Part shown: piece by piece, positions 13,624-15,272 of the stretch | Numbering within the stretch: the stretch's first letter is position 1 | How the letters are laid out: each line of letters starts with the position of its first letter | NCBI GenBank assembly: GCA_025350105.1 | Contig: JANXYJ010000149.1 | Location: 1 to 64,000 of the forward strand | Direction of reading: 5' to 3' | DNA length: 64,000 bases | Origin: Terriglobia bacterium | Lineage (GTDB): Bacteria; Acidobacteriota; Terriglobia; Bryobacterales; Bryobacteraceae | The notes under the pieces: generated by a model | Databases searched by the model: none | Seen by the model: only the letters and a program-made list of their open reading frames with translations | What the model was told of the DNA's origin: nothing | Program-made: the position numbers and the translations under genes

Positions 13624-13627
<4 letters not shown>

Positions 13628-14682
13628 GAACCGGGCTGCTGATTCTGCTAGCGGGGGCATCGCTCAGTGCCGCTATTTTTCCCGATCAGATCGGGCTCTA
13701 CCAACGATCCGCGCCCAAAACGATCGGCATCCCGGATCAGGCTCTCTACGACGAATATGGCCTGGACGCCGCCGAATCCGCCGATTACACCCTGAACGAT
13801 CCTGCCTCGAAGACAAAATCGGCCAAGCGCTTTTCAGCAAGTGCCTGGCGCCTGCACGATTCAACTGGCGCGCTGGCACTGTTTCAATCGCGCCGTCCAC
13901 CCGGGGCAACCAAGGCCAATTTCGCCGAGCTCTCCGTCCACACCTCCGACGGTGTCATCTTCGCCTACGGTAATTACGTCTTCCAGTTCACCGGCGGCCA
14001 GCCGGAACAAAAAGACCTGCCCGCGTTTTATCGCCAGTTAACCAAGTTTGAACATTCGCCGCTCCCCGCCTTGGCCGGTTATCTGCCTGACAGCCTCCCC
14101 AATGCCACCCTGATCCCTAACTCCGAACGCTATATCCTGGGCCCCGCCTCATTACAGCGCTTCGCACCGGGCATTTCTCCTTCAGCCGCCGCTTTCCACT
14201 TGGGAGCCGAGGCCGAGACGGCAAAATACAAAACGCCCAAAGGGCCCCTGGATCTCATCGTCTTCAACTACCCCACCCCTAGTATGGCCCGCGAGCAGGC
14301 CAACGAAATGCAGAAGATCCCCGGAGCCCTCGTCAAACGCACCGGCCCCCTCGTTGCGATGACGATCTCCCCGGCCGACGCCGACTCCGCCGAACGGATT
14401 CTGGCTAAGGTGAACTACGTAGCCACCGTCACCGAAGGCGAAAAAGTCCCGCAAAATGAGATAAAAGGCTTCGCCCAGTCCCTGCTGAACATGTTCGCGC
14501 TGGCCGGAATTGTCCTCTGCTTATGTGTGGTCGCCGGGGTGGGATTCGGTTGGTTTCGGGTCGTTGGAAAGAGGCTTTTCCACAAAAAGGACCCCGACGC
14601 CATGATCGTTCTCGGCCTCCGGGACACCGCCCAAGCCGGGCCCGTTCACGACACGGGCAATCGCCCGCCCACGGGCCAGTAA
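13624..14682 (+). CDS. DUF6599-like exported/membrane protein
   Basis: The 352-residue protein starts at the ATG that overlaps the secA stop (ATGA), so the two are translationally coupled. It has a signal peptide (LLILLAGASLSAA), an extracytoplasmic region with FPDQIGLYQR and NYVFQFTGGQPEQ motifs, and one C-terminal membrane helix (about residues 292-317) followed by a short charged cytoplasmic tail. This organisation matches acidobacterial DUF6599-type proteins, whose function is unknown; the family assignment is from memory. Coupling to secA hints at an envelope or export role, but that is only a contextual guess. Confidence 0.7.
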
Positions 14683-14833
14683 GTGGCGATGTTCCTGCCG
14701 TTTAGAAAGAAAAGAAGGCAAACAGCTGCGCCGAATTCGCCTGACTTCCAAATTAATTCGGTTGTCAAGCACTTTCTGTAAAGCTCTTGTAATCAATCAT
14801 ATGCGCCACGTTCCGCCTGGCTGGCTTTTTTTC

Positions 14834-14863
14834 TTGACTTGCCTGCCCTGAAAATCCTAAGAT
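14834..14863 (+). promoter_or_regulatory. Sigma-70-type promoter of the small RNA candidate
   Basis: TTGACT at 14834-14839 and TAAGAT at 14858-14863 are separated by 18 nt, a near-consensus housekeeping promoter. Predicted transcription start is about 14870, and no gene begins downstream on this strand before the terminator at 14951. Confidence 0.6.
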
Positions 14864-14869
14864 CCTATC

Positions 14870-14979
14870 ACAAAGGTTTTGACGGTCGCGATTCCGTTGG
14901 AACTGATTCTCCCATGTACATCCCCTGTCTGATAAACAGGGTCGTGAAAATGCCCACTGCAAAGTGGGCATTTTTGTTT
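14870..14979 (+). ncRNA. Unassigned small RNA of about 110 nt
   Basis: The segment lies between a good promoter (14834-14863) and a strong intrinsic terminator (14951-14979) with no convincing reading frame. Upstream of the terminator is a second hairpin: CCCTGT at 14923-14928 pairs with ACAGGG at 14936-14941 around a 7-nt loop. A 23-codon frame from the ATG at 14914 runs straight through the terminator stem and has no ribosome-binding site, so it is probably chance. The layout is that of a free-standing small RNA. It does not show the tmRNA, SRP RNA, RNase P or 6S signatures. Comparison with the Rfam Acido-1 and Acido-Lenti-1 families would be the natural test. Confidence 0.5.
14951..14979 (+). 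terminator. Intrinsic terminator
   Basis: TGCCCAC at 14951-14957 and GTGGGCA at 14964-14970 form a perfect 7-bp stem with a 6-nt loop, followed by a TTTTTGTTT tract and preceded by AAAA. This is a textbook Rho-independent terminator. Confidence 0.85.
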
Positions 14980-15272
14980 CTATAACCCTCAGTCTCTCTA
15001 CCGGATTACCCTCAGAAGCGCCTTAGGCGTCGCCAGCGCAAACCCCAGGCTACCTTTAAGGCTTGTCCGCCACCCTTGGCTCCTCAACGCCGTGGAGGCC
15101 GCAATTTTGCCTGCCGTTTCTGGGGCCCACCACCTAGCATCGGCGTGGATTCGCCGTCCTAATTTGGCTGTAGCCGCGGACGAGGGTTTAGACACTAACT
15201 GATATATCAATATGTGAGCGACGACGAACACGGCCGTCCCGGGGCTCCTTCGTGCCTCGGGTTTCGGCGTGG
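14980..15272. other. Intergenic stretch without a recognised gene
   Basis: Between the small RNA terminator and the cytochrome stop codon there is a 77-codon minus frame (14998-15231, GTG start) with no ribosome-binding site or recognisable motif. Just after the cytochrome stop, an imperfect GC-rich hairpin (CCCGGGGC about 15238 with GCCTCGGG about 15254) could end the cytochrome transcript, but it lacks a T-run. Nothing else is recognised. Confidence 0.4.

Follow-up and report, generated by a model that had tools for sequence, protein, structure and literature searches.

The region spanning positions 14834-14979 of the window (the whole 64,000-nucleotide stretch analyzed here) is supported as a small RNA gene that stands alone, between a promoter and a terminator of its own that are both conserved, and the predicted RNA is a single-copy small RNA of the class that holds Bryobacterales and Terriglobales. 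We consider it likely that this RNA acts in trans, pairing with the mRNA of a micro-gene recovered in related genomes and thereby repressing translation of a Lys/Ala peptide, probably with the assistance of Hfq. An earlier note on this DNA had guessed at a conserved acidobacterial small RNA without a known role. The first part of that guess is borne out by class-wide conservation with covarying stems and by the lack of any Rfam match, while for the second a role can now be proposed, as the unpaired elements of the RNA match the micro-gene mRNA in relatives, with changes occurring in both partners. Trans-acting base-pairing small RNAs are a known kind of regulator; what is new here is the family and its target, both of which are absent from Rfam 15 and from the literature searched.

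Promoter, fold and identity of the small RNA

The putative promoter is composed of a -35 box, TTGACT (14834-14839, plus strand, as are all features described below unless stated), preceded by a T-tract at approximately 14826-14832, and a -10 box, TAAGAT (14858-14863), at a spacer of 18. Its sequence is as described in the earlier note, and is of the sigma-70 type. Taken alone, the match is at chance level, with one found and 1.2 expected in shuffles in a pattern scan over 4 kb; it becomes significant because TTGAC, kept in nearly all relatives, and the -10 box are conserved, the two lying 17 or 18 nt apart in 181 of the 184 distinct sequences. The small RNA itself would be approximately 110 nt long (14870-14979), its start being placed from the -10 box and its end from the terminator of this conserved unit.

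For the predicted RNA (14870-14985), the computed folding energy is -40 kcal/mol, as compared to -26 in shuffles (z -4.2), and none of 200 dinucleotide shuffles folded as well. Three stem-loops make up the predicted fold (14875-14904, 14923-14941 and the terminator, 14946-14975). The first of them, stem-loop 1 (GGTTTTGACGG / CCGTTGGAACT, loop TCGCGATT), had previously been overlooked; its sequence is highly conserved, its stem covaries, and its loop reads TTGCG in most relatives. It is followed by a seed, TGATTCTCCC (14904-14913), and by a distal pairing block, ACATC (14918-14922), which extends to AACATCA in most relatives. Stem-loop 2 (14923-14941, CCCTGT / ACAGGG), formerly reported as an internal hairpin, is real as judged by the predicted fold and by stems that covary in the family. 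The intrinsic terminator with its T-run (14946-14979) is also present, but the 7-bp stem first assigned to it is too short: approximately 13 positions are paired (14946-14958 with 14963-14975), and 7 of the 12 modelled pairs show compensatory changes.

The RNA could not be assigned to a known family. No Rfam model reached its gathering score in the window, and in the region itself searches at E values up to 10 returned chance-level hits only. As anticipated from the sequence, none of the models for tmRNA, SRP RNA, RNase P RNA and 6S RNA matched the region, and a separate tRNA/tmRNA search found none. The 6S RNA model (RF00013) was set aside on these grounds, and the 6S RNA of this genome lies elsewhere in it (C79:8894-9094). 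Acido-1 (RF01686) and Acido-Lenti-1 (RF01687), two acidobacterial noncoding RNA candidates (PMC2864571), had been singled out as families to check; neither model matches the region at E up to 10. Membership in the RoxS/RsaE group was also rejected, with no Rfam match of such a family among the hits to E 10. Regarding coding potential, closed frames in the RNA of relatives are short, the longest having a median of 6 aa and a maximum of 31, in an inconstant frame; the earlier reading of a region without a convincing reading frame thus holds, and a coding gene was discarded because no frame is conserved across relatives.

Conservation across the class and selection on the structure

When the region was compared by BLASTN to 150 family genomes, most of them proved to contain related DNA; E values up to 10 were allowed in this search, and its weakest matches are chance. 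Once oriented, the alignment showed conserved -35 and -10 boxes, stem-loop 1, the unpaired stretch CTGATTCTCCCAT.GAACATC and stem-loop 2, while in the terminator the sequence shifts and the pairing is kept. At E 0.01, a covariance model (R1) matched 118 of 150 order genomes, and weak R1 matches proved on reading to be true relatives in the class families f4, f7, f8, f10, f11 and f12. R1 matches outside the class (families f31 and f39), together with several weak f11 matches, were terminator-only and were discarded. A second model (R2), comprising the promoter, stem-loop 1 and the seed and built on 63 sequences, matched 147 of 299 class genomes, always with exactly one match per genome. Among 297 phylum genomes, R2 matched 33, namely 32 class members and one weak case (G529, E 0.009), and no convincing copy was found outside the class with either model. 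Divergent copies lie behind the gene for a DUF6599 protein in genomes of families f5 and f6 (L286, L287 and L288), while among the genomes read from families f3 and f9 this gene is present and no small RNA was seen behind it. Moreover, a GTDB pattern scan returned records from Edaphobacter lichenicola, Granulicella, Acidicapsa, Terriglobus albidus, Ca. Sulfotelmatobacter and Bryobacterales, with the core present in 78 of the 80 tabled loci; the two core-less loci were pattern matches in Bacillus and Actinobacillus, which were rejected.

Covariation in the stems of aligned relatives, which the earlier note had named as a check, was found. Jointly, the three stems of 28 family members hold 19 double-change cells versus 5.2 in shuffles, and in the class-wide alignment 8 of the 11 pairs of stem-loop 1 are changed on both sides, with 35 double-change cells versus 10.6 in shuffles, comparisons in which shared ancestry inflates the covariation. 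When the partner strand of stem-loop 1 is slid, pairing falls from 90% to 33-59%; these slid controls, together with the compensatory changes in the terminator, strengthen the case for selection acting on the predicted structure. Among unpaired elements, UUCUCCY is found directly after stem-loop 1 in 180 of 184 distinct sequences and is the only one that nearly all families retain; the distal block is found just in the family of the window and is lacking in other families (f11).

A micro-gene as candidate target

The invariant and unpaired UUCUCCC within the seed is complementary to the Shine-Dalgarno sequence GGGAGAA. As a search pattern, this 7-mer near ATG gave too many matches to interpret, and the target search was carried out with GGGAGAAT close to ATG in 14 family genomes. 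It returned approximately 190 sites, versus fewer than 20 for the reversed pattern, a control that is imperfect, given that Shine-Dalgarno sequences are rich in purines. One 17-mer, GGGAGAATCAATCGATG, was recurrent among these sites, and the same micro-gene was present in 10 of the 14 genomes; an eleventh copy with an altered site, in G144, came up fortuitously in a stretch retrieved because of a different site.

The micro-gene (L474, L352, L356-L361, L380, L419 and L333) is a monocistronic unit of approximately 190 nt, with a promoter consisting of a T-tract and CTTGAC, a hairpin in the 5'UTR, an open reading frame and a terminator, and its surroundings differ from genome to genome. The encoded peptide, of the form MK(N/S/T/Y)ATKK... 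(for instance, MKNATKK...), is 19-27 aa long and Lys/Ala-rich. Pfam and NCBIfam scans of the peptide gave no match, and its composition suggests a nucleic-acid-binding mini-protein. The promoters of the micro-gene and of the small RNA are alike, both having the T-tract, CTTGAC and an AATCACA start region, which suggests a common promoter class or co-regulation. In the approximately 0.72 Mb (~15%) of the window's genome that was read, window included, the partner micro-gene was not found; the nearest case is in a genome of the same genus (G024, L352), and the small RNA of the window presumably has the same partner.

Four consecutive elements of the micro-gene mRNA, located in the 5'UTR and first codons and covering the Shine-Dalgarno sequence and the start codon, match the small RNA in antiparallel order: UGAUGUU, GGGAGAAUCA, UCGAUG and CGCAACC. 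The first of them, upstream of the Shine-Dalgarno sequence, is matched by AACAUCA of the distal block; the Shine-Dalgarno element itself by UGAUUCUCCC of the seed; UCGAUG, which includes the start codon, by CGUCGA; and CGCAACC, corresponding to codons 3-5, by GGUUGCG in the loop of stem-loop 1. The search itself imposed seed complementarity, and recurrence among seed matches was the criterion by which the target was picked; however, only the second block was part of the search pattern, the distal, start-codon and codon 3-5 blocks lying outside it. In G073, the two RNAs folded together reach -56.6 kcal/mol, versus -23.4 and -10.2 alone, the full complementarity requiring that stem-loop 1 be opened. 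In addition, computed pairing is stronger at the micro-gene sites than at 90 other GGGAGAAT start sites (p 5e-6).

In divergent lineages, a change in one partner tends to go with a matching change in the other. In G144, the small RNA loop reads GGUCGCG, as it does in the window, and the mRNA codons CGCGACC; in G008, AAACGUAAA of the small RNA meets UUUACGUUU of the mRNA; and in G042, AAUGUCA meets UGACGU, with one G-U pair. Matched pairs of small RNA and mRNA were better than permuted ones for the seed and distal region (p 0.0002) and for the full region (p 0.002). For the distal block alone the p value was 0.005, a co-variation that rests on two or three lineages and is not significant when G008 and G144 are removed (p 0.16), and for the loop block alone it was 0.10. 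Moreover, the Ala codon at position 4 is GCA in 10 of the 11 micro-genes, the remaining one having GCG in G144, whose small RNA loop is changed, while GCA is used in only 3 of the 67 other Ala codons; this choice is as expected if codon 4 were held by pairing between the two RNAs. In relatives, a conserved seed is therefore found to face a ribosome-binding site encoded elsewhere, with co-variation, as in base-pairing small RNAs.

Based on these results, we propose that the micro-gene is transcribed elsewhere in the genome and that the small RNA, acting in trans, would pair across the Shine-Dalgarno sequence, the start codon and the first codons of its mRNA. As a duplex over the Shine-Dalgarno sequence and the start codon would block binding of the 30S subunit, translation would be repressed. 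Hfq probably helps the pairing, and genes for Hfq are present in all 13 genomes tested, that of the window included. A more elaborate version of this proposal, which we put forward tentatively and regard as rather doubtful, is that of a class-specific pair in which an ancient Hfq-type small RNA and a micro-mRNA would be kept together by long co-varying complementarity reaching through the start codon into the coding sequence, the micro-mRNA both encoding a mini nucleoid- or RNA-binding protein and sponging the small RNA.

Three observations concern other sites. In the window's genome, a gene with a signal-peptide-like start (L374, G000:C55 near 74744) carries GATGATGTT-GGGAGAATGTGGATG; as both pairing blocks are present, it may be a second target. 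In G070, where the micro-gene was not seen, the gene for a longer K-A-P-rich histone H1-like protein has a similar 5' site, TGATTGATAGGGAGAAT (L348 / L392). On contig C1 of G144, GGGAGAAGGTGGGATG occurs in identical form more than 10 times in one genome, and is probably a repeat family.

The small RNA could instead be a general anti-Shine-Dalgarno regulator, acting on many mRNAs of which that of the micro-gene is one without special importance. This would fit the fact that the unpaired UUCUCCY is kept in nearly all families and the distal block only in that of the window. Such a regulator seems unlikely, as the distal block and the codon 3-5 pairing co-vary with one gene, and no other recurrent gene was met among approximately 100 sites read. 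Alternatively, the micro-gene transcript could be mainly a sponge, an RNA of ~190 nt that titrates the small RNA, whose main targets would be the many other mRNAs with a GGGAGAA Shine-Dalgarno sequence. The pairing is indeed long for a pair of small RNA and mRNA, the two promoters and start regions are similar, GGGAGAAT near ATG is common, and an RNA sponge is reported for RoxS of B. subtilis (PMC8216469). However, the micro-ORF is kept as coding, its Lys and Ala codons varying synonymously and its lengths differing by whole codons; the duplex encloses the start codon and the Shine-Dalgarno sequence, which is what translational control would call for; and the enrichment of GGGAGAAT over the reversed pattern may reflect ordinary Shine-Dalgarno use. 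We therefore see little probability in a transcript that serves mainly to titrate.

The combination of a tiny open reading frame under a strong-looking promoter with a Shine-Dalgarno sequence occluded by a separate antisense-like RNA also recalls type I toxin-antitoxin pairs, the cationic peptide being harmful if over-made and the small RNA its antitoxin. Type I toxins are typically hydrophobic. The present peptide is hydrophilic and Lys/Ala-rich, and the small RNA occurs in one copy at a fixed chromosomal place, unlike mobile toxin-antitoxin loci, so that an antitoxin role is very improbable. Repression of the micro-gene by the small RNA in trans is thus retained as the preferred reading.

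Genomic neighbourhood and relation to known systems

The constant upstream neighbour of the small RNA is the gene for the DUF6599 protein (13624-14682; Pfam PF20244, E 2.9e-11), which lies outside the RNA; in 134 of 138 loci it immediately precedes the small RNA on the same strand, and likewise in 73 of 78 named loci. It is preceded by secA in many loci. The DUF6599 protein of the window has a signal peptide-like start and a C-terminal hydrophobic segment. Downstream, the gene is variable, encoding, by sequence, RNase J in 46 loci and an ABC transporter in 24; in the window it encodes a cytochrome c on the minus strand. The fixed position behind DUF6599 and the recurrence of RNase J could hint at a cis-acting leader of the downstream gene or at a remnant of the DUF6599 3'UTR, but the small RNA has its own conserved promoter, a terminator stands ahead of the next gene, and the fixed same-strand downstream gene expected of a riboswitch or cis-leader is not seen, its identity and strand both varying, which argues against a leader and leaves this reading barely credible.

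Many or most relatives carry a palindromic element, GTAAGT-N-ACTTAC, in the interval that separates DUF6599 from the -35 box, tens of bp ahead of this box, with TAA and TTA nearly invariant and a roughly fixed spacing. It is weak in the window (14778-14805), and looks like a putative activator site. In f1 relatives (for example, L120, L124 and L139), TTTTCCACA / TGTGGAAAA is repeated between DUF6599 and the small RNA and bears a resemblance to DnaA boxes, while f11 relatives have direct repeats of the AAGCGAATA type in this intergenic region instead. The idea of a chromosome origin, based on the TTTTCCACA motifs, was abandoned: positions of the small RNA are scattered in one-contig genomes, and the skew of the window switches at 22-24 kb.

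RoxS and RsaE are C-rich small RNAs of Firmicutes, with a single-stranded pyrimidine-rich motif, stem-loops and an intrinsic terminator. The RNA described here resembles them in its stem-loops, its intrinsic terminator and its pyrimidine-rich single-stranded UUCUCCC, which can pair with a Shine-Dalgarno sequence. It differs from them in having no Rfam match, in its stems, promoter and context, and in a pairing that, in one micro-gene, reaches across the start codon and on to codons 3-5. With Hfq-dependent trans-encoded small RNAs of the enterobacterial type, it shares a separate locus, its own promoter, a terminator with a U-run, a seed facing the Shine-Dalgarno sequence and the presence of hfq in the genomes; unlike them, it has no sequence relation to any Rfam family, and its binding to Hfq is putative. 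Trans-encoded antitoxin RNAs of type I systems, such as those of the IstR/TisB and OhsC/ShoB type, offer a further comparison: as in these, the ribosome-binding region of a tiny open reading frame is covered by extended complementarity, but here the peptide is cationic and Lys/Ala-rich rather than hydrophobic, and the locus is a single conserved chromosomal one.

A survey from 2022 counted only four distinct annotated small RNAs for the whole phylum (PMC9029176), and our literature search found no paper on regulation by small RNAs in Acidobacteriota. Overall, the present analysis adds a class-wide family of small RNAs for which the fold is defined, a covariance model is available and a specific, experimentally testable candidate target can be named, in a dominant soil group whose cultured genera include Edaphobacter, Granulicella and Terriglobus. 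It also provides a case of intermolecular co-variation between a small RNA and an mRNA in a phylum other than the customary models, and suggests that a family of tiny lysine-rich proteins has gone unnoticed.
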